Assembly: GCF_030758935.1 (NCBI RefSeq)
Contig: NZ_CP132333.1
Span: 3,224,992-3,288,991, forward strand
Length of the DNA: 64,000 nt
Source of the DNA: Geothrix sp. PMB-07
Lineage (GTDB): Bacteria > Acidobacteriota > Holophagae > Holophagales > Holophagaceae
Reading direction: 5' to 3'
Positions 46,662 through 63,301 of this stretch are shown here, piece by piece (position 1 is the stretch's first letter; each line of letters opens with the position of its first letter). The notes below the pieces were generated by a model, which saw nothing but the letters and a program-made list of their open reading frames with translations, was not told the origin of the DNA and did no database searches. The position numbers and the translations under genes were made by a program.

Positions 46662-47087
46662 TTATCGCCCGCCCGAACGTGATGCCTTTGCCGGCCTGCC
46701 CTCACGAATATGGGAAGCCCAAATCCTGCGCTGGTCCTGCCATAGAGGAACTCGAGCGATCCGCAACAAGGCATGGAAGTTCACCCGGCTGGCCTCCGCC
46801 CTTGCCAGAAGCACCGCCTCCTGGAGGTCTGGAGCCAGGTAGACCAGCGCATGAAGCTGAGCCACACGAGGTTGGCTGACCCCAAACTTTTTTGCCAGAA
46901 TCTGCGAATACCCTGGGCCAAACGCCTCGATGCCACGCGCGAGCACATGGGCTTTCGCCAGGCACAGGGCCAGGCGGGGAGGCCGACCCATCGGTTCATC
47001 TCTCTCCCCTGGCTTCTGAAAGGTCACCTGGAGCCCTCGGCGCACCCGCATGAAGGGCACCTCCACTGTCAGTTCATCGACCTTCAT
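46662..47087 (-). CDS. HTH protein, last gene of the recombinase cassette
   Basis: A 141-residue protein. The middle (SQILAKKFGVSQPRVAQLHA) is a helix-turn-helix, followed by LVYLAPDLQEAVLLARAEASR, like the ParB/Spo0J-type HTH and its following helices. The ATG overlaps the recombinase stop by 4 nt (ATGA), so it is co-translated. In similar cassettes the recombinase is followed by such a small HTH protein. It may direct the recombinase or repress the operon. Confidence 0.6.
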   Translation of the reverse strand: MKVDELTVEVPFMRVRRGLQVTFQKPGERDEPMGRPPRLALCLAKAHVLARGIEAFGPGYSQILAKKFGVSQPRVAQLHALVYLAPDLQEAVLLARAEASRVNFHALLRIARVPLWQDQRRIWASHIREGRPAKASRSGGR

Positions 47088-48394
47088 GCTGAGATCCTCG
47101 ATTCAGCGAGGTCGAGGCGCTCCAGATTTCGCAACCGGATGCGCAGGGTCCCCTGAGCCTCCTCGACCACCACTTCATCCACCAGCAGGCGGATGAGCCG
47201 CTGGCGGTTCCGAAGGTTCAGCGCTGCCCAGATCTCCTCAAATCCAGGAAATGTCCTGGGCAACCACCCCAACCCCTGGATGAGGTAATGATCCAAGGCC
47301 GCCCGTCTTGCTTCGTTCTGAAAGGCCTCCTTGAGCTGGTCCACCACGAAGGCCTCGATGGCCTCCGCCGGAAGCTGCTTCATGGCGCAGACCTTCTTCC
47401 CCCATTTGTCCCGCGTGGTGCAACGGTAGTAGCGAAATACCCGACCATTTCGACGGGTGGATGCGCTGGTCATGAGCCCCTGGCAAACCCCGCAACGCAA
47501 TGTGCCCCTGACCAGGTAGTCTGGGTTTTGGATCAGCACGCCGGGTTGGTGGTGCCTGGGTTTCATGAGGCGCTGGGTCTGATCGAACACCTCTCGCTTG
47601 ATCAGAGGAGGGTGCTCCGCCGTCACGAACTCTCCGAGACAAGATATTTCTCCGATATAGAGGCGGTTCCTCAGAATCCGGAGCACATGATCCTTGTTCC
47701 AGGGATGTGGCCGCGGCTTCTGCATGGCCCGCAAGGGGACATCCGCATCATTAAGGCATTGGCTAATCTCCAGGGCACTCTTGCCCTCCAGATACCACTG
47801 AAAGGTCTGAATCACCCACGGAGCCTCTGCTTCGGCCACCACGAGCCGGCTCTTTTCGGACCTATACCCAAGGGAGGTGACACCCCCCGTCCATTTCCCC
47901 TTCCGTCGAGCTCCGGCCACCTTGTCTCGAATGCGATCTGCGATCATCTCCCGCTCGAACTCCGCAAAGCTCATCAGCATGTTCAGCGTGAGCCGACCCA
48001 CAGGATCAGCCGTGGAGAAGTTCTGGGTGATGCTCACAAAGGCGACCCGGTGCCGGTTGAAGTGTTCCATCACCCGGGCGAAATCCACCAGAGAGCGGGA
48101 GAGCCGGTCCACCTTGTAGATCACCACGACATCGATCATTCCTTGCCTGATGTGATCCAGGAGCTTTTGAAATCCGGGCCTCTCGATGTTGGCCCCTGTG
48201 AACCCCCCGTCATCATAGGGTTCATCGAGAGCGACCCAACCTCGGCTAGCCTGGCTCGAGATGTAGTTCAGGCAGGCCTCACGCTGGGCGTCCAAGGAGT
48301 TGAAATCCTTCTCCAGACCCGCGGCCGTGGATTTGCGGGTGTAGACCGCACACCGGACTGCGGGTGGCAGGCCCAAATCAGGATTGGCGGCCAT
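47084..48394 (-). CDS. Large serine recombinase
   Basis: A 436-residue resolvase/invertase-type recombinase. The catalytic domain has AVYTRKST with nucleophile Ser22, then YDDGGFTGANIERPGFQKLL and VVVIYKVDRLSRSLVDF, the conserved Arg region. A 'recombinase' domain (GYRSEKSRLVVAEAEAPWVI) and a zinc ribbon (RCGVCQGLM ... YRCTTRDKWGKKVC) follow, and a C-terminal helical part. It is short for a phage integrase but complete. It overlaps a DUF2924 gene (17 nt) and the HTH gene (4 nt). No att repeats or other mobile genes surround it. Confidence 0.9.
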   Translation of the reverse strand: MAANPDLGLPPAVRCAVYTRKSTAAGLEKDFNSLDAQREACLNYISSQASRGWVALDEPYDDGGFTGANIERPGFQKLLDHIRQGMIDVVVIYKVDRLSRSLVDFARVMEHFNRHRVAFVSITQNFSTADPVGRLTLNMLMSFAEFEREMIADRIRDKVAGARRKGKWTGGVTSLGYRSEKSRLVVAEAEAPWVIQTFQWYLEGKSALEISQCLNDADVPLRAMQKPRPHPWNKDHVLRILRNRLYIGEISCLGEFVTAEHPPLIKREVFDQTQRLMKPRHHQPGVLIQNPDYLVRGTLRCGVCQGLMTSASTRRNGRVFRYYRCTTRDKWGKKVCAMKQLPAEAIEAFVVDQLKEAFQNEARRAALDHYLIQGLGWLPRTFPGFEEIWAALNLRNRQRLIRLLVDEVVVEEAQGTLRIRLRNLERLDLAESRISA

Positions 48395-49378: not shown

Positions 49379-49705
49379 GTCCTTTTTGGGTCCTCCAAAA
49401 CTTACTTTCGTCAAACGGCATAACCTTGATCCTGATTTGCCTCGATGCGAAATCCTGAATTCACCTCGAATAACATAGGGCCACCGGACAATCGGCTCAC
49501 GTGCCTTCCACCTTCACTCCCTTCACCTTCAATCCACTGGCCGATAACCAATCGGCTGGAACGGTCCTTCAGATCTTTGAGTTCAAGGCTCCGGTCATTC
49601 CCCGATGAACGGCCTTGGCCTTAAGAGAACCTCCATGGACATGGACGCTCTCGTTTGCCCACCCACCAAGTCCTTTGAGACGGTATCTGGCCAGGTTTGG
49701 TGACA
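49379..49705. other. Stretch between the recombinase cassette and the IS5 element, no gene seen
   Basis: Only short frames without ribosome sites. It should hold the promoter of the minus-strand cassette at its left end. Confidence 0.4.
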
Positions 49706-50572
49706 CTAGGGCCTGTTTTCAAAGTCAAGAAAGGCAAATGGACGTAAGGGGTTGTACAAATTGCCTAACTGCGGTACCTCATGGGTATGACGTTGAGGTA
49801 GAGCGTGGCGAGAACTTTTCTGACTGAACGAATGTGGGCCAGGCTAGAGCCTCTGCTGCCGAGCGAGCAGGGTGGAATGGGGCGCCCTCGCCTGGACAAT
49901 CGCCCCATCGTTGAAGCGATCCTCTGGAAGCACAGAACGGGAGCGCCCTGGAGAGATTTGCCTGAATCCTTCGGACCTTGGAACACGGTCTTCACGCGCT
50001 TCAATCGGTGGAATCGGAGCGGAGTCTGGCAGCGGGTCCTCGAAGCCCTTCGAGGTGAAGCGGATTGCGAATGGGTCATGGTCGACGGAACCGTTATCCG
50101 CGCCCATCAGCATGCGGCTGGTGCAAAAGGGGGACCTACATCCAAGGGCTTGGCCGCTCGCGCGGCGGTTTCTCGACCAAAGTCCACCTGATCGGGGATG
50201 CCCACGGCAACCCCGTCGATTTCGTGCTGACACCAGGCCAGTCGCACGAGAGCAAGCAACTCGGAAGCCTATTAATGGGCCGGGAGGCCGGGGCTGTTCT
50301 CGGTGATCGTGCCTACGACGGAAAGTCCTGCTGGGATCAGATCGCGTCTATTGGAGCAGAGGCAGTTGTTCCACCTCATCCATGCAGGAAGGATCCAGCC
50401 GCCTTCGATAAGCATTTCTACAAGGCCCGCCACGCCGTCGAGAACCTGTTCGCGAAGCTCAAACAATACCGAAGCCTCGCTACCCGTTACGACAAAACCA
50501 TGCGCAACTACAGCGCCATGGTCGCCATTGCCTGTGTCCTTACCTGGCTCCGACTTTGAAAACACACCCTAG
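49706..50572 (+). mobile_element. IS5-family (IS427-like) insertion sequence, about 867 bp
   Basis: The left end CTAGGGCCTGTTTTCAA and right end TTGAAAACACACCCTAG are inverted repeats with two mismatches. CTAG at both limits may be the target duplication. Inside are two overlapping frames that together make one DDE transposase by a -1 frameshift, as in the IS427 group. Confidence 0.85.
49805..50559 (+). CDS. IS5-family transposase made by -1 frameshift
   Basis: The first frame (49805-50191) gives the N-terminal insertion domain (RMWARLEPLLPSEQGG, GAPWRDLPESFGPWNTV) and the first catalytic Asp (MVDGTVIRAHQHAAG). The second frame, open from 50065 and ending at 50559, gives RSRGGFSTKVHLIGDAHGNP, the second Asp (VLGDRAYDG) and the Glu (HAVENLFAKLKQYRSLATRY). 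Joining them needs a -1 shift near GCAAAAGGGGGA at about 50123-50134, where AAAA and GGGGG runs stand. Together they make about 250 residues, the normal length, so the element is probably active rather than broken. Confidence 0.85.
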
Positions 50573-51204: not shown

Positions 51205-52608
51205 CTACTTCGGAAGGACCAGGGTACTGAAGCTGTGGGCCGGCAGCACGAGCGCCAGATCTCTACCTTTGACACGAGCCTTCAGACTCCGGGCCTCATC
51301 GCTGGTGTTACCCAGGACCATAACCGTCCCGCCATCTGCGTTGCGGAATGCCAAAACTTCTCTGTCCTCACCTGTGGTCGCGAGACGTCGGGCCCCGGGC
51401 AAAACGAATGCTGAGAAGTGGCGGAAGAGATGGTATTCAGGGTTCCATGTGACAGTTCCAGCCGCCTTGTCTATGGTGATGAGTGCGTTCTGGACCCACC
51501 CCCAGCGGCTGACGCCACCCTTCTCCAGCACCATGTTCCAGGCCATGTGTGCTTCAGCGCCATGCCCCAAGTAATGTCGGATAAGGCGGAAGGTGTATTC
51601 CGCGTCCGTCCAGCTGTTGGCGCCTTCTCCACACTCGGTTTCGGTCTGCACGAGGGGTAGCTTCGGATACTGGCGGTGGACGAGGGCGATGCCATCCTTC
51701 CCGGCCCACTGGAAGCCCACCCCACGTAGGATGTGCTTTGTCGCGGGGTCCTCGATGATGGTTCGAATGCGCTCGAAATGAGGCCTCTCCACAGTGCCGA
51801 GCCAAATCTCTGTGGGTAAGGCCTCCATCTCGAACCTCGGACCCAAGTACCCACCAATGAAAGTGGCCAGGTCCTTTGGTTCCCAGACACAGCTGGGGAA
51901 AACCTGACAGGAGTTGAATTCGTTTTGCACATGCAGTGCCTTGATGGGAAGGCCCTCTGCCTCATATGCACGTACGAACCTTGCTAGGTAGGCGGCATAG
52001 CACTTCAGATACGGTGGTTCCATGCGGAACTGAGTGCGCATTTCGCCCCCGCGTCCTTCAGGCTTCAGGTCGTTGAACTGAGGGCTGGGCTTGCAGGCAT
52101 AGTGGTTGTTCGTTTTCATCCAGCTCGGCGGGCACCAAGGAGAGGCCCATAGTGTGAGGCTTGGCTCCAGCGTCTTCGCCGACTTGAGGTACGGGAGAAG
52201 GCGCAAGCGGTCCCGTTGGATGCTGAAATGCTTCAGTTCGAAGTCCTCCTTCGTTTCGTCGTGGCTGTACCAATCTGCCGAATAGTCATTTGCACCTACC
52301 GGGACCCGCCCCAAGGTGAACCTGAGGCCTGTCGGTCCGTAGAGGCTTGCCAAGACCTCCGCCCGTTTCCCTTCGGGGAGCGCCTCCATGGCGGCCCAGC
52401 CCAGCTCATTGAAGCAGCCACCCCAGCCCCGTATGGTCTGCTCTTCGATATCCGTGACTTCGAGCTGGAAGGAAGGTTGAGGGGGAAGCATAGCGGGGGG
52501 GGCAACCTCGACCCACGTCGCGATTACGGTACTGACAAGGAGGGAGGGCTGCGGGGTTTGTGCGGCCAAAATGAGGCCCAGCATGGGGAGAAAGACAAGT
52601 CGAATCAT
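51205..52608 (-). CDS. Secreted GH30-family glycoside hydrolase
   Basis: A 467-residue protein with a signal peptide (FLPMLGLILAAQTP). The GH30 pattern is clear: GWGGCFNELGW (61-71), RVPVGANDYS, WASPWCPPSWMKTN, acid/base Glu230 in LHVQNEF, and the nucleophile among VQTETECGEG (Glu323/Glu325). The end (FRNADGGTVMVLGN, PAHSFSTLVLP) is the side beta-domain of the family. GH30 enzymes hydrolyse beta-glucosyl or related linkages (glucosylceramide, beta-1,6-glucan, xylan). The start overlaps the upstream GH2 stop by 4 nt, so it is part of one operon. Substrate is not resolved. Confidence 0.9.
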   Translation of the reverse strand: MIRLVFLPMLGLILAAQTPQPSLLVSTVIATWVEVAPPAMLPPQPSFQLEVTDIEEQTIRGWGGCFNELGWAAMEALPEGKRAEVLASLYGPTGLRFTLGRVPVGANDYSADWYSHDETKEDFELKHFSIQRDRLRLLPYLKSAKTLEPSLTLWASPWCPPSWMKTNNHYACKPSPQFNDLKPEGRGGEMRTQFRMEPPYLKCYAAYLARFVRAYEAEGLPIKALHVQNEFNSCQVFPSCVWEPKDLATFIGGYLGPRFEMEALPTEIWLGTVERPHFERIRTIIEDPATKHILRGVGFQWAGKDGIALVHRQYPKLPLVQTETECGEGANSWTDAEYTFRLIRHYLGHGAEAHMAWNMVLEKGGVSRWGWVQNALITIDKAAGTVTWNPEYHLFRHFSAFVLPGARRLATTGEDREVLAFRNADGGTVMVLGNTSDEARSLKARVKGRDLALVLPAHSFSTLVLPK

Positions 52609-55600
52609 GGATGCTGCGTCCTCAATAAGTTGAAGCCCCGAAGGCGAAGGATAGGAGACTCGCCCCGACAGTCCTCGTGGCGGACCTCCACGCAGACTTC
52701 CCGACTTTCTCCCGGAAGCAGGGTGAGGAAGTTGTCAGTGAACAGGGCCGGCAGAATACGGTCATCACTTCTGTCGCGATGTACTGACAGCATTAGGCCC
52801 AGAGCGATGGTCGCTGAGCTATTGCGAAGCTCACCTTTCAGGATCCATTTGTCTCCTGATTGCGTGCGAGACTGTCTAAGGTCTACCAGGGCCGATGGAA
52901 GACTATTGATGGCCTGTGTGTCCGTGCTTTCTCTGCCACGCAAATAGTCGTTCCTGGACAACGTCGTCCCACCTCCCTCTAAGGTCAGCCTGAGGAGGTA
53001 GGCAGGAGTCAGGGGCAGAGGGCGCTCCACTGCGAAGAGGTCCTGTGTACTGTCCTCCGTGCTGTCCACGTGGGCCATTTTCTCCCACACCAGGGTACCG
53101 TCGAAGCGGTATAACTGGGCTCGGGCTGAAAGTCCTTTATGGTCGTTCGCTCCAGTATTTACCACCTGGATACGATCAGAGGATTCGTGCCATTGAATAT
53201 GCAATGGCTCGCAGGCCTTCTTTGCGCCGAAATAGGCTGCCGTGGGCTCAAGGTAGTAATCGTATGTCTGCCAGACCAGGCTCGGCCAGGCGGGGTGGCT
53301 CATCCAGATGAGCAGCCCCATGCGCTTCTGATTCTGGCCCTCAAACATGGCCCGGTACCCGTCGTAGCAGAGGAATTGCGCCTGTTGAATCCATTCCTCT
53401 ACCGAACCTGCGTGGCCGTATGAGCGCCGTAGCTGGTCGAGGAAGGAGGTACCACCCTGGGCACCTGCCAGAGTGAAATCATGCAGACCCCAGAGGCGGC
53501 CCGGGGGCCAGAGATCGGCCTCCGGCATCATGAGGCGCAGGCTCTCCAAGCTGGGAATACTGGGCATTCCCATCTCACTGTGGAGCTTGGCACGGGCTAG
53601 GGTGGTTCCGTAGGTTTCCAGTGGGTACACATGGTAAGGGCCATAACCACCCACCACTCCATCCGCGGAATTAGGTACAAAGATGGCGCCGGGGTGTTCC
53701 CTGGCCAACAATGACCGAATCCCTTGTTCGATGGGCAGGGGCGGATACCCTTCATTACGCCCGCAGTAGAGGCCAAGGGAGGCATGGGTCCGAACTCTGT
53801 TGACCAACTCGGCGGCATTGGCCAGGAATAATGTGGTACTCGCTGGGTCATCTCCGTCCCAGGGATTTGCGAGCCAGAAGTCCTGCCAGATCACGATTCC
53901 ATTGCGGTCACAGGCCTCGTAGAAGGCATCCTGGCCCACCATGCCAAGCCAGTTCCGCACCATGTTGAAGTGCATGTCCCGGTGGTACGCCAGCGCCGCG
54001 TCGAATTCTCGCTCCCGGTAGCGGAGCAGGGATTCGGAGAAGCCCCAATTGCCACCTTTAGGTATGAACCGACGGCCGTTGACCCACAGGCGGAGGCTGT
54101 TTCCATCGTCCGAGGCCTTAAATTGCCGAACCCCTGCCTGGAAGCAGCACGTATCGCTGGGACGGGTAGCACCTTCCGGAATGAAGCTCAGCTCCACACC
54201 GTACAATTCCGGCTTGCCATAGCCATTGGGCCACCAGAGACGGGGGTTCTGCAGCCGCAAGCTGGGATTGGTAGCGGGATCTAAGTGGAGAGTTATCCGT
54301 TCCCGAGCGCCCAAGGATACCGCTTGTTCAAACACTACTTCGCCAAAGTGGCCTACAAGGCGACCCATGACAGGCCCATCCACGCCTGAAACTACGGTGA
54401 TGGCAAGGGCGACATCGGCGGTAGAGGTGTCCGGAAGAGGCAGCCGGATCGTCACCTCGGGCCGTTCCAGGGTCACCGGTCCGGTAGACAGAAGGCGGAC
54501 GCGATCCCATATCCCGGTATTGCGTCCGCGGATGCTGGGAATCCAATCCCAGCCAATGGAAGCATGAAAGGTAGGGTTGTCGCATCCCAGCACGCCGCCG
54601 TTCTCCCCAGGCTCCTCAAAGGTCTTCTCCTTCACCGAACCGGGATGGTCGTTCTTCACAATCCTCACCGCCAGGGCGTTGAGATGCCCAGGGATGAGCT
54701 GGTCGGTCACATCGAAGCGCTTACGAGAGAAGGCACCTTCGATGCGGCCAATATCCACCCCGTTGAGGTAGACCTCCGCCTTCCAGTTGATGCCATCGAA
54801 GCAGAGCCATCGCCTCTGCCCGGCGGAAAGGACTGGAACGGTGAAGGTGTTGCGGTACCAGAAGTCGGCGTAAAAATAGGAATCCGAAACTGCCAACTGC
54901 TGGTCTCCATAGGTCGGATCGGCAACGGCCCCCGCCGCCACATAGCTGGCGAGGACGGTCCCGGGAACCGTGGCAGGCAGCCAAGCATCATCACAGAACC
55001 CTGGCTGCGACACCTGGGCTCCGCTGCCCTGAACCTGGGATTCGCGGGCCAGACGCCAGGCACCCATGGTGAGTTCCAGGTTGCCATTCGGGCTAGGGGT
55101 CGGCTGGGGTCGAGAGATAGGCACAAGCCCACCAGTGCCCCATATCTCACATTCTGAAAGGATATAACCATCCTCAGTGGCAGCTTTGGCCATCCAAATC
55201 CTTACATGGCGCGCCCTTTTGGGGTGGAATCGGAGGTCGTCCCTTTCACCAGATGAGGGCAGGACCATGGCCGTATTCCAGTGGATTCCGTCCTGGCTTA
55301 ATTCCACCCGGCCCTCCAAAGGGCGGCGGATCCAATGAAGGGTGACTTGGTCTACGCGAGCTGGGGCTCCCAAGTCCACGGATACCCATTCCTCGCCTCT
55401 CCCAGCGGATTTCCAGGCACTGCAGAATCGCTGCGGGCCGCCCACTGGAATCTCTTGCCCTTGGCGGGTAAGGTTCCATTCCTGAAGGATCCATTGCCGT
55501 GCGCGTGGATCTCGGAGGTGGATTCGATAGGCTTGGCACCTAGCCATGGAAGGGAATGCAATCGTCGCCGTGAAGTTACCACCAAGACGCGTCTTGCCAC

Positions 55601-56141
55601 TCGCTTCCCCGAGGGTGCGCCATGCGTTTCCATCATCGGTGCCTTGAAGCAGGCAGCCCCAGGTTTCTGGATCATTCCCTGAACCCTTCACTACACCGGT
55701 TAGCTGCATGGCATCGACTTCAGGCAGAGCCCCGCCAAAATCCAGGCGGATCCATGGTGCGGAGGCATCCACGGGGAGCAAGGCCGAGCCCTTGAGCTCC
55801 ACTTCGGTCACCCAGTTTCCATCGAAAAGGCGTTCTCGTTGGTGTTTCTTGAAGGTGCCTCGTTCCGAGCTGGCGAAGCTGAACCATGTGGGAGGGGTGT
55901 TCGTGATGATGCCGTCGGTGACGAGCTGGGCCGTCAGGTTGTAATCCCAGGCGCTCGATTGCAGAGCCGGTCGGTGCAGGGCCAAGTTCCTCCGAGCAGC
56001 CGGGGCCGGTAGGAGTAACGGAGCTGCGCTTTCAGAGGCGCGACCGGGATAGCATCCCGTCCCCAAGGTGGGCTTGGTGGATGCAGCAAATAGGGGCGCA
56101 AGGACACAAAGCAGAGCTAGGATGCGCAATGGACTCTCCAT
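52605..56141 (-). CDS. Secreted GH2-family exoglycosidase with discoidin-like domains
   Basis: An 1178-residue protein with an N-terminal signal peptide (ILALLCVLAPLFAAS). Residues about 45-330 hold F5/8-type (discoidin-like) carbohydrate-binding repeats (NLALHRPALQSS; APWIRLDFGG; WVSVDLGAPARVDQVTLHWI). The GH2 sugar-binding and immunoglobulin-like domains follow, then the TIM barrel: FIPKGGNWGFSE, acid/base Glu in YCGRNEGYPP and nucleophile Glu in LHSEMGMPSIPS. The family includes beta-mannosidase and exo-beta-glucosaminidase. It starts 12 bp after the first GH2 gene of the operon. The extra binding domains suggest work on a polymer or glycoconjugate. Confidence 0.88.
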   Translation of the reverse strand: MESPLRILALLCVLAPLFAASTKPTLGTGCYPGRASESAAPLLLPAPAARRNLALHRPALQSSAWDYNLTAQLVTDGIITNTPPTWFSFASSERGTFKKHQRERLFDGNWVTEVELKGSALLPVDASAPWIRLDFGGALPEVDAMQLTGVVKGSGNDPETWGCLLQGTDDGNAWRTLGEASGKTRLGGNFTATIAFPSMARCQAYRIHLRDPRARQWILQEWNLTRQGQEIPVGGPQRFCSAWKSAGRGEEWVSVDLGAPARVDQVTLHWIRRPLEGRVELSQDGIHWNTAMVLPSSGERDDLRFHPKRARHVRIWMAKAATEDGYILSECEIWGTGGLVPISRPQPTPSPNGNLELTMGAWRLARESQVQGSGAQVSQPGFCDDAWLPATVPGTVLASYVAAGAVADPTYGDQQLAVSDSYFYADFWYRNTFTVPVLSAGQRRWLCFDGINWKAEVYLNGVDIGRIEGAFSRKRFDVTDQLIPGHLNALAVRIVKNDHPGSVKEKTFEEPGENGGVLGCDNPTFHASIGWDWIPSIRGRNTGIWDRVRLLSTGPVTLERPEVTIRLPLPDTSTADVALAITVVSGVDGPVMGRLVGHFGEVVFEQAVSLGARERITLHLDPATNPSLRLQNPRLWWPNGYGKPELYGVELSFIPEGATRPSDTCCFQAGVRQFKASDDGNSLRLWVNGRRFIPKGGNWGFSESLLRYREREFDAALAYHRDMHFNMVRNWLGMVGQDAFYEACDRNGIVIWQDFWLANPWDGDDPASTTLFLANAAELVNRVRTHASLGLYCGRNEGYPPLPIEQGIRSLLAREHPGAIFVPNSADGVVGGYGPYHVYPLETYGTTLARAKLHSEMGMPSIPSLESLRLMMPEADLWPPGRLWGLHDFTLAGAQGGTSFLDQLRRSYGHAGSVEEWIQQAQFLCYDGYRAMFEGQNQKRMGLLIWMSHPAWPSLVWQTYDYYLEPTAAYFGAKKACEPLHIQWHESSDRIQVVNTGANDHKGLSARAQLYRFDGTLVWEKMAHVDSTEDSTQDLFAVERPLPLTPAYLLRLTLEGGGTTLSRNDYLRGRESTDTQAINSLPSALVDLRQSRTQSGDKWILKGELRNSSATIALGLMLSVHRDRSDDRILPALFTDNFLTLLPGESREVCVEVRHEDCRGESPILRLRGFNLLRTQHP

Positions 56142-56153
56142 GGCGGAGATGAA

Positions 56154-58898
56154 TTACCGGAACTGGAGTTTCAGGCTGGCCAAGCCATTCCATGCCTGAA
56201 CCTTGAGGATGACAGGCTTGAGTGGCTCACTACGTTTAGGGGCCACTTTCACGATGATTGTGCGGCTTTCGCCTGGCAGGAGGCTTACATAGTTATCGCT
56301 GTAGGTTGCGGTGAGAACTTCGTCCTCACCCTCCAGGCGGAGCCGTGCATCAAACAGTAAGGCAGAACCAGGGTTCGAGAGGGTGACTCGGAACACGCTG
56401 GGTCGTCCAGGCATCGTCTCCGCCGTGAGAGTGGGTGAGACGATGGGCAACTTCTGAAGCTCATCCAGAGCGTTTTCAAAATGCCTAAACTTGTTGAAGC
56501 CGCGGTCCTTGGCTTGCTCGGACGTGGGTACAACCGGTGTGGTGGTGCGCACCGCCATGGGATAGTGCAGGTCGCTGATCATCCGGCCGCTGGCATCCTT
56601 TAAGCGCACCGCCAGTAGGAAGGTGCGACCTTCGAAATCCATGGGAATGGCCCAGCGGTGGGTGAGTACGGCCCGGGAGGTATTGGCCGCGATGTCCGCA
56701 ACGACCTCTTGGTGGTCCAGCACCCGGCCTTGAACGCTCAGCAGTGTGGATTCCACTTTGAGGTTCTGCTGGGCCTGATCGAGATCGTTTAGCAGGCTTA
56801 GTTCTGTCCGAAACGTCTGTTCGGGCTTCCAGAGATAGGTTTCAAAATCCGCTGCCACGTGGACAGGGCGGCTGGCGCGGCGGGATGCGTAATAACCGCT
56901 TTTCGGTGTACCATACCAGTCGACCATCGACCAGGATGCGCAGGGGTAGGCATCGTTGAACTGCCAAATGAGCACGCCGCTGTTCTGAAATTTCTTCGAC
57001 CGGCAGAACTCAATGTTGAAGCTATTAGCGAGCGCCTGGGCGAGTTGTGAGTGGCGGATGTATTGATCAATGCTGCTGGAGGGCCCGAATTCATTCGCGT
57101 AACGGTCTTGTTTGGGCATATGGCTGAAATTCACTTGATAGGATCCACGGAATTCCAACCAGTGCTTGTCCATGGGCCAGAGCTTGTCGGGTGGCGTGAA
57201 CTTCCTGTAATTCTCCACCACGGGCATCGCGTTCAGGCCCGCCTCGCTCCGGAAAGGACGGACCCGACGGTAGTCGGTATATGGGGCGAAGCGGTGCCAC
57301 ACACCCCAGAAATGGTCATCGCCCATGTAGGGCGATGCCCGGTGGAATTCACGGTCGGGATCCTCCTCCTGGACAACGCGGCCGAGGCGATCAATGAGAT
57401 CCTTGATGCCAGAGGCATCGGGGTCGAATTCATTCCCGCCACAGTAATAGGTTAAGCTGGGGTGGTTTCGGATCCGGCGGAGGGTGGCGCGGGATGCGCG
57501 AGTGAAAATGTCGCGGTCCAGTTTAGAAAAGTCACTGCTGGAGAGAAACTCGAACCAATTGAGAATGCCCTTTTCATCACAGAGCTCGTAGAAATCCTCG
57601 GTCTCGAATAGGCCACCGCCCCACACTCGGAGCAGGTTAAAATGAGCATCCTTGGCCAAGGTGAGCAGGTGGTCGTAGCGGGCCCTGTCGAGCCGCAGCA
57701 TCTGGTCAATCGGGACCCAATTACTGCCCTTGGCGAACATCTTCCTGCCATTGACTTGGAAGGTCCAAGGATAGGCCCCCACCACTTTCCCCTGGCTCTG
57801 CACGGCGATGAGGTCATTGGTCAACGCGACCGGCTTGGCAATGGACTCCTTCATGGCTTTGAGGAACTCGTCTGTGTTTTCGTTGGGGATGATTTTGAGC
57901 TCGCGGATGCCAAATGACGTGCTTGCCTGATCCGAGATACCCATGCTGGACATTACCTTGACATCGAAGGTGTAGAGGTTCTGATCCCCCATGCCGTTGG
58001 GCCACCAGAGCCTGACATCCTTCAGGTCGATGGTGAAATGCGAGGTGGTGGAGCCCTTGGCGGCCACAGAAAAGTGCTTTTCCACTCTGACGGGATCACC
58101 TTTGAAGTTTTTGGGCCGGATGTTTCCCACCAGCGTGGATTCAGCAGTCTGAGCAGAGAGGTTCGTGGTTTCGACCTGGACATCCAGGCGAGCTCCGCCT
58201 TCAGGCCGCAGTGTTGTCCGCACCCAGGGCTGATCCACCCGCAGGAAATTGGTCACCCGGAGCTTCACCGGGCGCCAGATCCCCGTCACGACCATGTGGG
58301 GCGCCCAATCCCAGCAATAGAGGCTCTGGCTGATGGCATGGAGCTGGGGTCGCTCTGGGGTCAGGTCGTACTGATAACCAAACGATAGGTTTCTTTGCAC
58401 GGCGTCCTTGGGCGCCTCCAGCCGCACGGCGATGACATTCTTTCCGCCATAGTTCAGATCTGAAGACACAGGGAACGCGAATGGATTGAACATGCCTTCC
58501 ATGGCGCCCAGAGCTTTTCCATTGAGCCAAACTTCTCCCTTGTAGACGATCCCCTCGAAGATCAGGTCGATGGTCTTGCCCTTGTGGGTCGCGTCCAAGG
58601 TGAATTCCTTGACGAACCACCACTCCTTCTCCTCAGTCCAGAGGGTGTCGAGGGCATTGGTGCCCACGTATGGATCGAGGATTTCACCAGCTTTGAGCAG
58701 AGCTGCGCGTTCAGTAGTTGGGACAGTGACAGGCATGAAACCAAGACGTGACCCTTTAGGCAGGTGAATTCCCAAATGAACGCCTACCCCCTTAGAAAAA
58801 TCCTTCATCCGCCATAGGCCGGTCAGGGGCACATCGTTCGCCCGTAGGAGCAAAGAGGTGAAGAGCAGGCTGAACATAACAAGCAGGCTCCGTTGCAT
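56154..58898 (-). CDS. Secreted GH2-family exoglycosidase (first gene of the operon)
   Basis: A 914-residue GH2 enzyme. The signal peptide is MQRSLLVMFSLLFTSLLLRA. Domains: a jelly-roll sugar-binding domain (WLNGKALGAMEGMFNPF), an Ig-like domain, and a TIM barrel with FAKGSNWVPIDQ, acid/base Glu in YYCGGNEFDPD and nucleophile Glu in YANEFGPSSS. It resembles the beta-mannosidase/exo-glucosaminidase branch; the exact specificity is not determined. I chose the ATG at 58898 with GGGAGA upstream; the open frame extends 27 codons into the divergent promoter. It is divergent from the MFS gene. Confidence 0.9.
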   Translation of the reverse strand: MQRSLLVMFSLLFTSLLLRANDVPLTGLWRMKDFSKGVGVHLGIHLPKGSRLGFMPVTVPTTERAALLKAGEILDPYVGTNALDTLWTEEKEWWFVKEFTLDATHKGKTIDLIFEGIVYKGEVWLNGKALGAMEGMFNPFAFPVSSDLNYGGKNVIAVRLEAPKDAVQRNLSFGYQYDLTPERPQLHAISQSLYCWDWAPHMVVTGIWRPVKLRVTNFLRVDQPWVRTTLRPEGGARLDVQVETTNLSAQTAESTLVGNIRPKNFKGDPVRVEKHFSVAAKGSTTSHFTIDLKDVRLWWPNGMGDQNLYTFDVKVMSSMGISDQASTSFGIRELKIIPNENTDEFLKAMKESIAKPVALTNDLIAVQSQGKVVGAYPWTFQVNGRKMFAKGSNWVPIDQMLRLDRARYDHLLTLAKDAHFNLLRVWGGGLFETEDFYELCDEKGILNWFEFLSSSDFSKLDRDIFTRASRATLRRIRNHPSLTYYCGGNEFDPDASGIKDLIDRLGRVVQEEDPDREFHRASPYMGDDHFWGVWHRFAPYTDYRRVRPFRSEAGLNAMPVVENYRKFTPPDKLWPMDKHWLEFRGSYQVNFSHMPKQDRYANEFGPSSSIDQYIRHSQLAQALANSFNIEFCRSKKFQNSGVLIWQFNDAYPCASWSMVDWYGTPKSGYYASRRASRPVHVAADFETYLWKPEQTFRTELSLLNDLDQAQQNLKVESTLLSVQGRVLDHQEVVADIAANTSRAVLTHRWAIPMDFEGRTFLLAVRLKDASGRMISDLHYPMAVRTTTPVVPTSEQAKDRGFNKFRHFENALDELQKLPIVSPTLTAETMPGRPSVFRVTLSNPGSALLFDARLRLEGEDEVLTATYSDNYVSLLPGESRTIIVKVAPKRSEPLKPVILKVQAWNGLASLKLQFR

Positions 58899-58909
58899 TC
58901 CAGATCTCC

Positions 58910-58941
58910 CATCTGATATCCAGAGTATGATATACCAGATG
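58910..58941. promoter_or_regulatory. Candidate operator between glycosidase operon and transporter
   Basis: An inverted repeat CATCTGATATC (58910-58920) and GATATACCAGATG (58929-58941) fills the middle of the 79-bp gap between the two divergent operons. On the minus strand it also reads as two direct copies CTGGTATATCA / CTGGATATCA. The site is like those bound by GntR-type repressors, but no regulator gene is present in the window. Confidence 0.6.
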
Positions 58942-58977
58942 TCTGAAAAAAGACCAACCCTTCTCCATGAGGTCACC

Positions 58978-60102
58978 ATGAACTTCCGGGCAGTACCCGT
59001 CTTTCTTGTCTTCCTCTTGATGGGTGTGGCTGACGCGATGGCGCCCTTGTCAAGTCAAGTGTCGCAAAACCTAAAAATGGCTGCGCTAATGCCATTCTTT
59101 GTTTTCACTGCCTTCGCCGTATTCAGTGTTCCAGGGGGTGTAATGTCCGCGCGCCTTGGGAAAAAGAGGACACTCCTGTTCGGCTTGACTCTTTGCACTG
59201 CGGGTGTGGCCGTGCCGACATTCTTTCGTCCACCCCTTCCTCTTTTGTTGATATCTATTACGTTATTGGGAGCAGGAACGACGCTCCTTCAAGTGGCAGG
59301 AAATCCCATCATGCGCGATGTGAGCCCTGCGGGAGCATACAGTCGCAATCTTGCCTTGGCCCAGGGCATCAAGGGTGTAGGATCGACAGCAAGTGCTTTT
59401 CTTGTAACTGCAGTGACATCTATTACAGTTTTTTCAACCATGGGCTGGCGAGGCGCTTTTCCCATTTTTTTTGCCTTAATGGTTTTGGCGCTGATTTTGG
59501 TGGCAACCCTGAAGATACAGGAAACGAAGGCTGAGGCACCCTCAAGTATCTCTAGTTCCCTGACCCTGTTAAGAGAGCCGATCTTCGCTCAAGCGGTAAT
59601 GGGCATATTTTTGTATGTTGGCGCCGAAGTCTGCATGGCGACCTATTTAAAACCGTTCATGGCGCGATTTGGAATGGGTGAAAGGGTTGCAGCGCTGACT
59701 GGTCCAACGGTGTTTTTCGCGTGCCTCACATTGGGGCGCCTAGTGGCTGCCGGTCTAAAAATTCCCGCGAGCTATTTTTTTCGAGTTAGTACCGGGCTTG
59801 GATTGGCTGGGCTATTGTGCTTAACGATTGGCGCGAAGCCCTTGGCGCTCCCTGGGGTCATCCTCAGTGGGTTGGGTTTCGCGAATATTTGGCCCATGCT
59901 CTTTAGTCTTACGGTGGAGACAAAGCCTGAATGCGCTAGTCAACTTTCTGGACTTATGTGCATGGCCATCAGTGGTGGTGCCTTACTTCCTCTTGTAATG
60001 GGACAACTGGGAGGCGGGGAGCTTTCGATTTCATTCTGTGTTCCATTGGCCTGCTTTGTATATCTCTCTGCTTTAAGCCTGATGGACTGGAATGTGAGGT
60101 GA
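58978..60102 (+). CDS. MFS sugar permease, FucP-like
   Basis: A 374-residue permease with about eleven or twelve membrane segments. The N-terminus VPVFLVFLLMGVADAMAPL and the loop GGVMSARLGKKRTLLFGL, then LGAGTTLLQVAGNPIMRD, match the FucP/GlcNAc/glucose permease branch. It probably imports the sugar released by the glycosidases. I chose the ATG at 58978 with GAGG upstream; the open frame extends through the promoter. The coding sequence is clearly lower in GC and different in codon use from the GH2 gene next to it, so these parts may have joined recently. It is 6 bp ahead of the ROK gene. Confidence 0.85.
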   Translation: MNFRAVPVFLVFLLMGVADAMAPLSSQVSQNLKMAALMPFFVFTAFAVFSVPGGVMSARLGKKRTLLFGLTLCTAGVAVPTFFRPPLPLLLISITLLGAGTTLLQVAGNPIMRDVSPAGAYSRNLALAQGIKGVGSTASAFLVTAVTSITVFSTMGWRGAFPIFFALMVLALILVATLKIQETKAEAPSSISSSLTLLREPIFAQAVMGIFLYVGAEVCMATYLKPFMARFGMGERVAALTGPTVFFACLTLGRLVAAGLKIPASYFFRVSTGLGLAGLLCLTIGAKPLALPGVILSGLGFANIWPMLFSLTVETKPECASQLSGLMCMAISGGALLPLVMGQLGGGELSISFCVPLACFVYLSALSLMDWNVR

Positions 60103-60108
60103 TTTGAC

Positions 60109-61239
60109 ATGGCAGATTCACGCACAATTCTGACCCTGGACGCTGGCGGAACTACATTTAGTTTTCATGCCATTCGTAATCAGCAGGAAGCATCAGCCCC
60201 TCTTGTTCTCCCAAGCCATGCTGATGACCTCGGGGCCTGCCTGTCCACGCTTGTAGATGGATTCAATCGTCAGAAACAAATTGTAGGCGGCCCAATAGCG
60301 GCGATCAGCTTTGCATTTCCTGGGCCAGCTGACTATGCTCGCGGCATCATTGGTGATCTTCAAAACCTCCCTGCCTTTAGAGGTGGGGTGGCTGTTGGCC
60401 CCTTTTTGGAAGACGCTTTTGGTGTGCCAGTTTACATTAATAATGATGGAGATCTCTTCACATACGGGGAAGCCCTCTTCGGAATATTGCCGAAAATTAA
60501 TGAATTGTTGGCTAGCTCTGGGAGTCCAAAGTGTTTCCGTAATCTGTTGGGTCTTACGCTCGGCACAGGATTCGGAGCCGGCGTGGTAACCGAAGGACAC
60601 TTGCTTCGTGGCGATAATAGTGCGGCGGCAGAAATCTGGTGCCTCCGGAATAAATTGGATCGAAATTCTTATGCGGAGGAAGGGGTATCCATTCGTGCCA
60701 TCCGGCAGGCCTACGCAGTTGCGAGTGGCATGAATTACGAACAGGCCCCCGATCCACGGGAGATCGCAGAAATTGCCGCTGGGACGAGACCCGGAAATGT
60801 TGGTGCAGCAAAGGACGCCTATACCCGTATGGGTGAAGTGGCTGGAGATGCAGCAGCGAATGCCGTGACAATGGTAGATGGGATAGTCGTTATCGGAGGT
60901 GGATTGGCCGGAGCATCTGAATTCTTTCTCCAATCCATGGTAGAGGAAATGAATCGCGACTTGGCAAGCGTCACAGGCAGGGGAAATGTTCCAAGAATGG
61001 AGCTTAAGGTATTCAACCTAGAGGAGCCTACTCAACTTCAAACCTTTTTAAAAGGCCAGGTCACAACCATTCTCGTCCCAGGGGCACACAGACGACACAT
61101 TGCTTACGACCCCATGAAGCGAATCGGCGTCGCCGTGACTCGTCTCGGAACAGCGCGGGCTGTAGCTCTAGGTGCCTATGCCTATGCAATTGCAGAACTG
61201 GACCGGCAAAATGTTTGCCCCGCACAGATTATTAGCTGA
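60109..61239 (+). CDS. ROK-family sugar kinase, zinc-free type
   Basis: A 376-residue protein. The phosphate-binding loop LTLDAGGTTFSFHAI is at 8-22, a second nucleotide-binding stretch GLTLGTGFGAGVV at about 147-159, and an adenosine-site VIGGGLAGASEFF near 265. VYINNDGD supplies the catalytic Asp. The usual ROK zinc motif (HxxGC(x)CGxxGC) is missing; GAAEI-like SAAAEIWCLRN takes its place. This variant occurs in ROK proteins of gut and soil bacteria that act on hexoses. It would phosphorylate the sugar imported by the MFS protein. The substrate is not identified. 190 bp without a gene follow up to the IS. Confidence 0.85.
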   Translation: MADSRTILTLDAGGTTFSFHAIRNQQEASAPLVLPSHADDLGACLSTLVDGFNRQKQIVGGPIAAISFAFPGPADYARGIIGDLQNLPAFRGGVAVGPFLEDAFGVPVYINNDGDLFTYGEALFGILPKINELLASSGSPKCFRNLLGLTLGTGFGAGVVTEGHLLRGDNSAAAEIWCLRNKLDRNSYAEEGVSIRAIRQAYAVASGMNYEQAPDPREIAEIAAGTRPGNVGAAKDAYTRMGEVAGDAAANAVTMVDGIVVIGGGLAGASEFFLQSMVEEMNRDLASVTGRGNVPRMELKVFNLEEPTQLQTFLKGQVTTILVPGAHRRHIAYDPMKRIGVAVTRLGTARAVALGAYAYAIAELDRQNVCPAQIIS

Positions 61240-61429: not shown

Positions 61430-62440
61430 TGTAAGTGCCAATCAGGTTGTTCACCCGAGATCTGGGAAGCTGAAAGCGCCAACAAACAGCTTTCTCGGAG
61501 CCTCGGGTGAACCTCCACAGTTCAGCAAAGTCTTGCCCCGCCAGTCGAGCATTAATGGTGAAGCGCGTTCTGGAGGAGGACTGGACGGTCCGGGATGCGG
61601 CTGAATCCATAGGAATCAGCACGCGCAGGGCCTACCGATGGCTCGCTCGGTTCAAAACAGAGGGTCCGGCCGGACTCCTGGATCGCTCCAGCCAGCCGCA
61701 TCGCCTGGCGCGAAGCCACGAGCTTGGCCTCGTCGTCGAGGCCGTAGGTCGAAGGCGGCGGGGCCAGGCGGCGATCCGGATTGCCTCGGAACTGGGCGTG
61801 CCCCGTTCCACCGTGGGCTTCTGGCTCCGCAAGGCGCGCATCTCCAAGGCTTCGGACCTCCAGCCCAAGGAACCCGACAACCGCTACGAACACGCGGCCC
61901 CCGGCGACCTCCTCCACCTGGACACCAAGAAGCTCGCCAACTTCCACGAAGTGGGCCACCGCGCCACAGGCATCCGCCACCACAAGAACCGCGATGCGGG
62001 CTACCAGGTGCTCCATGTCTGCTCGGACGACCACTCGCGGGCCTGCTACATGGAAGTGCTCCCGGACGAGAAGAAGGAGACCACTGCCTCATTCCTCCAG
62101 AGGGCGCTGTTGCACTTCCAGGCCCGGGGCGTCACCGCCCGCAAGCTGCTGACCGACAACGGCTCGCCCTACCGGTCCAAGGCGTTCAAGGCCATGCGCG
62201 AAGCCTTCGGCCTCACGCACAGCCGCACCCGCCCCTACCGCCCACGGACCAACGGCAAGGCCGAGCGGTTCATCCAGACGGCCCTGCGAGAGTGGGCCTA
62301 CGGTCCCACCTGGCAGAACTCAGACGAAAGAAACCAGGCGCTCGGCGCCTGGCTCCACTTCTACAATCACCACAGGCCCCACAAGGCCTTAGGTGGTCAG
62401 CCCCCGGTTACCCGGCTGGTCAACCTCGTTGGCACCGACA
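61430..62440 (+). mobile_element. IS481-family insertion sequence, copy 2 (1011 bp)
   Basis: Same length and ends as copy 1 (starts TGTAAGTGCCAATCAGG). The flanking 6-bp duplication is TCTAGT (61424-61429 and 62441-62446), again NCTAGN. The orientation is opposite to copy 1, so the two copies form inverted repeats 16.8 kb apart. Each copy has its own target duplication, so each moved independently. Confidence 0.93.
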
Positions 62441-62445
62441 TCTAG
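61507..62445 (+). CDS. IS481-family transposase (copy 2)
   Basis: A 312-residue transposase with the same HTH and DDE core as copy 1; catalytic positions are Asp in LLHLDTKKL, Asp in LTDNGSPYRS and Glu in TNGKAERFIQ. A few residues differ (GVTARKLL, ERFIQTAL, HKALGG, LVNLVGTDI). The TAG stop again lies in the target duplication. Confidence 0.95.
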   Translation: MNLHSSAKSCPASRALMVKRVLEEDWTVRDAAESIGISTRRAYRWLARFKTEGPAGLLDRSSQPHRLARSHELGLVVEAVGRRRRGQAAIRIASELGVPRSTVGFWLRKARISKASDLQPKEPDNRYEHAAPGDLLHLDTKKLANFHEVGHRATGIRHHKNRDAGYQVLHVCSDDHSRACYMEVLPDEKKETTASFLQRALLHFQARGVTARKLLTDNGSPYRSKAFKAMREAFGLTHSRTRPYRPRTNGKAERFIQTALREWAYGPTWQNSDERNQALGAWLHFYNHHRPHKALGGQPPVTRLVNLVGTDI

Positions 62446-62586
62446 TACACCAGGATGGGAGGGGTGCCTCCCACTTTTCCGGGGCACAAATGAAGCCTGA
62501 CCCAAACCCCGAAAAATGGACCAGGGATGATGTGAAATTCGGGCCTTGGAGGGCACCCTAGAGGGAGCCCAGCCAAGGAGGCAGAG

Positions 62587-62853
62587 ATGCCAAGGAAGGG
62601 ACACAGCGAGGAGCAGATCGTCTTCGCCTTGAAGCAGGCAGAGAACGGGGCAAAGATCCCGGATATCTGCAGGAAGTTGGGGATCTCGGATCAGACCTTC
62701 TACCGGTGGAAGCACCAGTTCGAGGGGCTCGGGGTCTCTGAGCTTCGAGAACTTCGGCAGCTTCGGGATGAGAACGCCCGGCTGAAGCGCTTGGTGGCAG
62801 ACCTGAGCCTGGACAAGCACATCTTGCAGGAAGTGCTTTCAAAAAAAGTCTGA
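62587..62853 (+). CDS. IS3-family OrfA (left copy)
   Basis: An 88-residue HTH/leucine-zipper protein: HSEEQIVFALKQAENGAKIP, DICRKLGISDQTFYRWKHQ, then LRELRQLRDENARLKRLVAD. This is OrfA of IS3-type elements (IS407 group). The gene ends shortly after a run of seven A at 62841-62847, which fits the classical A AAA AAA slippery site for -1 frameshifting into OrfB. An AAGGAGG lies before the ATG. Confidence 0.92.
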   Translation: MPRKGHSEEQIVFALKQAENGAKIPDICRKLGISDQTFYRWKHQFEGLGVSELRELRQLRDENARLKRLVADLSLDKHILQEVLSKKV

Positions 62854-62861
62854 AGGCCGCG

Positions 62862-63199
62862 GTGCGACGTTCGCTGGTGGACTGGATCCAAAAGGGCTAT
62901 GGGTTCAGTGAGCGTCGCGCCTGCGGCCTTGTGAGCATCTGCCGGACAAGCGTCCGGTATAGGCACAGGCGGGACTCGCAAATCCCTTTACGAATGCGGT
63001 TGAAGGAACTGGCGGCAGCCCGAGTGCGGTTCGGCTATCGGCGTCTGACGGTGTTACTACGGCGGGAGGGGTGGCACGTGAATGCGAAACGGGTCTATCG
63101 GATCTACAAGGAGGAGGGGCTGATGATCCGCACCAAACTGCGGAAGAAAATCGCACGGAGAAGGCCACTCATCGTAGAACGGGCCAAGGCCCCGAATCA
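62862..63199 (+). pseudogene. Truncated IS3-family OrfB (left copy)
   Basis: The N-terminal part of the transposase is intact (SLVDWIQKGYGFSERRACGL, FGYRRLTVLLRREGWHVNAK, IARRRPLIVERAKAPNQ), then it breaks off at 63199 into unrelated sequence. The DDE core is missing entirely. The right copy on the minus strand continues past exactly this point with RWSMDFVAARL, which shows what was lost. This copy cannot make a functional transposase. Confidence 0.88.
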
Positions 63200-63301
63200 G
63201 CTGATCCGCCCCGGTTTTCTAGCGCAGGTTCAATGTGGAAGATCGGACCTCTGAGAGTCCCCTTGGCCAGTGTTTTAGGCCTTGGGAGCGGGTTGGTCGA
63301 A

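Follow-up and report, generated by a model that had tools for sequence, protein, structure and literature searches.

A candidate FadR-type operator between divergent glycosidase and sugar-uptake operons within an IS-bracketed segment of Geothrix sp. PMB-07

Glycan utilization loci of Bacteroidetes and Xanthomonas combine a TonB receptor, exported glycoside hydrolases, an MFS inner-membrane permease, a sugar kinase and a linked regulator. The locus described here contains the same types of components, with the difference that IS elements separate its receptor part from its glycoside hydrolase part. In the FadR divergons treated in the relevant parts of a GntR-motif survey (PMC4494728), a single site usually occupies a position close to mid-gap, and weaker boxes are often observed 7-12 nt from the site centre. 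Our locus resembles the FadR (FCD) divergons of those parts (PMC4494728) in its palindromic box near mid-gap, its weaker extra box and the presence of HTH+FCD regulators with similar boxes. Our main reading, to which we assign a probability of roughly 0.55, is that it represents a GntR-controlled divergon for the use of glycans containing beta-mannosides, with a gene named FCD1 here as the likeliest regulator. The locus is not named in the literature among the matches listed. Such a reading would provide a regulon amenable to testing in a phylum that has been little studied, as no Acidobacteria are included in the taxonomy table of the survey (PMC4494728); if true, it would also mean that the match between a regulator and its targets can persist while IS elements move and break up a sugar-use locus. 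Apart from these regulon and IS aspects, the genes represent ordinary bacterial sugar metabolism.

The window, i.e. the whole 64-kb stretch of DNA analyzed, corresponds to C1:3224992-3288991 of a genome that consists of a single contig (C1) of 4,242,863 bases. Its relevant features are as follows (window positions):

49704-50572, plus strand: IS element with a DDE transposase
51205-52608, minus strand: GH30 glycosidase (PF02055, 1.5e-30)
52605-56141, minus strand: GH2 with F5/8 type C (CBM32-like, two models) and Ig_GlcNase domains (Pfam), called GH2+CBM below
56154-58898, minus strand: GH2, beta-mannosidase-like, leading the minus operon (Pfam, PDB structures)
58899-58977: divergent intergenic region, 79 bp
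58914-58924, minus strand: weaker second copy of the box, CTGGATATCAG, one base shorter, repeated in direct orientation at a distance of 15 bp from the main copy
58927-58938, minus strand: candidate main operator-like box in FadR-type GntR style, CTGGTATATCAT (matrix score 14.0)
58978-60102, plus strand: MFS sugar permease (Pfam)
60109-61239, plus strand: ROK-family hexokinase (PF00480, 1.4e-18)
61507-62445, plus strand: IS481-type transposase, separating the ROK gene from the receptor/regulator part of the segment

Pfam and ORF analysis confirmed the predicted arrangement, in which GH2-GH2-GH30 (minus) and MFS-ROK (plus) are split by a 79-bp gap; the likely starts bounding this gap (58898 and 58978) were chosen by eye. 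All NCBIfam matches of the locus genes are far under the respective cut-offs, and therefore no exact function was assigned by family.

The GH30 protein reached 126 bits against the NCBIfam endo-1,6-beta-glucanase model (cut-off 700), and its nearest solved structures are PDB 2wnw (1.3e-34) and 5ngk (5e-31). It has a signal-peptide-like start, a feature that was judged by eye only for this and the other enzymes predicted to be exported. For the GH2 protein at 56154-58898, the nearest solved structures are the beta-mannosidases 5n6u (8.6e-84) and 2je8 (8.2e-70). Both of its Glu positions (N-E and, later, S-E), which we take to be the catalytic residues, align with 2je8; the aligned 5n6u has no Glu at the first position. 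As judged from these comparisons, the protein is beta-mannosidase-like. A 70%-identical ortholog is present in Geothrix limicola, and the GH2 itself was detected at E<=1e-60 in 3 of 396 genomes of the phylum. The nearest solved relative of the GH2+CBM protein is the exo-beta-glucosaminidase 2vzo (8e-61), which is a point against the mannoside reading. An S-E doublet at the acid/base position is a subfamily mark of GH2 exo-beta-D-glucosaminidases; 2vzo has S-E there and the GH2+CBM protein N-E, and chitosan use by the latter was rejected on this basis. Five near-full-length relatives of this protein (47-52% identity) were found, all in other families of the phylum.

The MFS protein belongs to the gluP/fucP/NagP superfamily and is below the cut-off of each NCBIfam model, with 48.5 bits against the FucP L-fucose permease model TIGR00885 (cut-off 280.4). 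The nearest solved structure of the ROK protein is PDB 3mcp, named 'Glucokinase' (9.2e-119). Together they form a recurring cassette: three further pairs with the same gene order are present in the genome (C1:206, 650 and 2703 kb; identity 65-70% for MFS and 57-64% for ROK), and MFS adjoins ROK in five of eight loci taken around ROK matches in other genomes. The closest ROK from another genome lies at L119 of genome G075, where the gene listing contains no MFS. GH92 enzymes are alpha-mannosidases. The pair at 650 kb has a GH92 gene before it and a MannoseP_isomer gene after it, the pair at 2703 kb also adjoins a GH92 gene, and no GH92-like or mannose-related neighbour was identified for the pair at 206 kb. 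Since one GH2 is beta-mannosidase-like and MFS-ROK paralogs lie beside GH92 genes at two of three places, mannose appears to be the likeliest sugar of the locus. Besides the GH92 neighbours of two of them, these cassettes differ from the window pair in the GC3 of their six genes (0.81-0.89) and in the lack of an FCD-type box upstream (best matrix score 7.7).

The original prediction regarded the gap as being filled by a palindrome. The 32-bp element concerned (58910-58941) covers 32 of the 79 bp; the two arms match over their outermost 6 bp and are shifted against each other by 2 nt from there on. Of 500 sequences generated by a first-order Markov model of these 79 bp, 65 reached or exceeded the element's score of 8 as an ungapped inverted repeat, so that it is no better than chance and the 32-bp palindrome was discarded as a functional unit. 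With up to three mismatches allowed, the full element has a single occurrence in the 4.24-Mb genome, and no exact match was found in viral contigs. Two copies of a single box describe it better than a palindrome does: the minus strand shows TCTGGTATATCA and then TCTGGATATCA (TCTGG-ATATCA with a gap). The main box (12 bp) lies in the right half of the proposed palindrome, and its centre is 5.5 bp off the middle of the gap. The second copy scores just 0.66 on the ungapped matrix described below, and its facing half is, by our count, ~11 nt from the main site centre. A search of 58700-59100 revealed no sigma-70-type promoter.

Further examination of G. limicola revealed a perfect version of the box, CTGATATATCAG, 20 bp ahead of the GTG start given by the ORF list for the GH2 ortholog, and in three genomes of the genus similar boxes (CTGRTAYATYAG) are situated upstream of GntR genes of the FadR type (FCD). 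When a matrix was built from 11 regulator-linked sites without the two GH2 sites, the window site scored 14.0 and the G. limicola GH2 site 20.6. The scan covered 407,979 bases, i.e. the window plus 21 loci chosen around FCD, GntR and MFS-ROK genes and not the whole genome, with an overlap of 3 kb between the window and L060. Scores of at least 14.0 were obtained at 14 sites: 11 regulator-linked matches, both GH2 promoters and one IS sequence (L060:10621). Ten of these regulator-linked matches are among the 11 training sites; the remaining one is another occurrence of CTAATACATCAG, at L152:19310, which precedes a 738-aa gene near FCD1b that is not a regulator, though it was counted as regulator-linked; the training site GTGATACATTAC itself scores below 14.0. 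A palindromic A/T-rich box is common to the regulator and target promoters; the GH2 sites were known when its motif frame was selected. For this reason, and because some FCD1 sites were picked using a matrix that contained the GH2 sites, leaving these sites out does not make the test completely independent.

It is unlikely that the box is a chance match or a remnant and that the two operons are not co-regulated. The unremarkable 32-bp inverted repeat and the position of the locus in an IS-rich, low-GC segment would agree with such an explanation, but the box recurs at the same promoter in the 70%-identical ortholog, and the best score of the window gap was reached by 84 of 20,000 random Markov 79-mers and that of the G. 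limicola gap by none of 5,000 Markov sequences. At one mismatch, the pattern CTGRTATAYCAG occurs at 14 places in the host genome versus 8 for the reversed control, a weak enrichment, and at 15 places versus 9 in G. limicola. The 14 host places are upstream of FCD2, upstream of FCD3, in the window, in two IS sequences and inside long ORFs (nine places); the TATA core is kept at three of them, namely upstream of the two GntR genes and in the window. Occurrence at many unrelated promoters, the counter-evidence named in the original prediction, was hence not seen among these places in this genome. Among the 15 G. limicola places, eight of which were inspected, an FCD1-like box (CTGATGTATCAG) was observed between two ORFs (C3:566019-566030, L165).

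Compared with the FadR consensus given in the part of the survey concerned (NyGTM-N0-1-KACNy / TKGT...ACMA; PMC4494728), the Geothrix CTGRTAYATYAG boxes often have AT/AT in place of GT/AC. The conserved GT and AC are present in the FCD2 boxes of the host and G. limicola (GGTATACC), in one half only of the window box (GGTATATC) and in neither half of the G. limicola GH2 box. Because the box is kept at the GH2 ortholog and similar boxes are found upstream of FCD genes, the locus has the appearance of an ordinary GntR divergon; the idea of a shared operator served by a GntR-type regulator from elsewhere would stand in this form, though with a box that makes up only part of the palindrome.

The host genome has 13 GntR-HTH matches (12 above the cut-off) and four FCD matches. 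None of the 13 lies in the 64-kb window, and the nearest gene starts 6.7 kb beyond its end, which agrees with the predicted absence of a regulator gene as far as GntR genes, the class covered by this check, are concerned. Control in trans, as predicted, is strictly correct, but the nearest candidate, FCD1 (C1:3295650-3296366), is located 11.7 kb from the box, outside the window and inside the same IS-bracketed segment. FCD1 is divergent from an outer-membrane (TonB-type) receptor gene and two small genes for OM-protein-like products, and has the boxes CTGATGCATCAC and GTGATACATTAC upstream, 139 bp apart. At its G. limicola ortholog (72%), the two boxes are CTAATGTATCAA and CTAATACATCAA with a spacing of 140 bp; the box CTAATACATCAG is found at a second paralog of that species, and a weaker match only (11.0) at a third (L158). 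No score reached 14.0 around the FCD gene in L156 of genome G019. In G. limicola, two FCD1-type regulators are present within 7 kb (L152 8116-19350), each with receptor-like genes and CTAATRYATCA boxes. A perfect palindrome, TCTGGTACACCAGA, located 0.25 kb behind FCD1 (C1:3296619), was rejected as an FCD1 operator because it belongs to an IS: the sequence is found again at C1:1296826, close to a second transposase-like ORF, and the two occurrences lie in repeats of 120 bp (81.7%) and, farther on, 256 bp (85.9%). FCD1 relatives of at least 58% identity were found in two of the 47 genus genomes (the host and G. limicola), the next being 51% identical in G044. The 70% GH2 ortholog, for which a set of 77 genomes including these 47 was searched, occurs in the same two of the 47; as both genomes are among the larger ones, this co-occurrence may be partly trivial.

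An alternative that we consider possible, if doubtful, is that the regulator is FCD2 or FCD3, distant FCD paralogs, and that the locus is part of a wider regulon. Boxes are present upstream of FCD2 (C1:4127183-4127965) in all three genomes, CTGGTATACCAG in the host and G. limicola and TTGGTATATCAG in G019. For FCD3 (at about C1:1023.3-1024.0 kb), a box lies ~1.45 kb upstream in each of the three genomes inspected (CTGATATATTAG in the host and G019, CTGATATATTAA in G. limicola), and a peptidase-like ORF, recognized by eye, is situated between box and gene in the host and G019. The FCD3-upstream boxes of the type CTGATATATTA are at L064 7346-7357, L154 4950-4961 and L153 4359-4370. The box centre is G or C in the FCD1 boxes, a point against FCD1, and A|T in the window, G. 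limicola GH2, FCD2 and FCD3 boxes, so that FCD2 or FCD3 fits the box letters better. Moreover, the GH63/MGH1-like gene located behind the G. limicola GH2 has a counterpart of 59-62% identity at the FCD2 loci of three genomes. However, both genes are unlinked to the locus, and G019 has FCD2 and FCD3 yet no GH2 ortholog. The recognition-helix stretch is SRTPLRDAL in both FCD1 and FCD3, and therefore fails to separate these two; it is GRTPIREAL in FCD2.

Control by a MocR-type GntR appears highly improbable. In G. limicola, such a gene is found at a distance of 3.8 kb from the GH2 ortholog, and the host genome contains an ortholog of it with 67% identity, but 19 kb around the latter contain no strong box (best 9.2), on which ground it was dismissed as the regulator; moreover, MocR motifs are described in the survey, in the part concerned, as being without a common palindrome (PMC4494728).

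Returning to FCD1 and the mannoside reading, the presumably exported GH30 and the two GH2 enzymes would release mainly mannose, which the MFS permease would import and the ROK kinase phosphorylate. A dimer of a FadR-type (FCD) GntR is predicted to sit on CTGGTATATCAT near mid-gap, probably contacting the shorter neighbouring copy more weakly, and would repress both operons until freed by a sugar-derived ligand. Among the FCD paralogs, we infer that the binder is most likely FCD1, whose gene lies beside that of a TonB-type receptor and shares the IS-bracketed segment with the two operons.

This segment is delimited by the IS copy at 49704-50572 and an inverted copy beyond the window (window-frame 73229-74097; C1:3298220-3299088), which are 99.885% identical over 869 bp and each carry CTAG at both ends. 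The 22.7 kb between them contain the glycosidases, MFS-ROK, the IS481-type and another rve-type transposase, the receptor part, FCD1 and a DUF772 transposase. Cargo is thus bracketed by near-identical IS copies, which suggests a composite-transposon-like segment with low-GC glycan genes. We also consider, tentatively, that Geothrix may have expanded FCD-type GntRs into dedicated, receptor-linked regulators of glycan loci, whose CTGRTAYATYAG boxes differ slightly from one regulator to the next, and that FCD1 travels with the receptor, glycosidases, permease and kinase in the IS-bracketed segment. If so, regulator and operator would have stayed matched despite the mixed origin of the target genes.

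The GC3 of nine measured cargo genes is 0.456-0.713, versus 0.81-0.90 for ten comparison genes of the genome, which suggests that the segment is acquired DNA. Within it, the plus-strand genes (0.520 and 0.456) differ in composition from the three glycosidase genes (0.664-0.705), in line with the predicted two pieces of different origin. On the other hand, in a ROK tree of 33 rows the window ROK groups with that of G075, a member of the same family (support 95/91), and these two with the ROKs of C1:651 kb and G019 (99/98). It seems from the tree that the ROK half originated in the host's own family or close to it, and a different origin of the two halves, which may have had different donors, is plausible. 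A donor with the same gene order was rejected, as the GH30, GH2 and MFS set is absent around all five GH2+CBM relatives and at a sixth locus, L190. Among the relatives' loci, L185 contains a remote ROK (28%) together with a receptor fragment (23%), L187 a remote GntR (25%) and L188 a receptor fragment (18%). Several other features were observed in or near the segment. A serine recombinase gene with Resolvase/Recombinase domains (47084-48394) is located just left of it; a 704-bp stretch (62498-63201) is repeated in inverted orientation at window-frame 63847-64550 with 96.4% identity; and a large ORF to the right of the segment (L060 14722-18819) contains direct repeats of 267 bp (window-frame 78872-79695).
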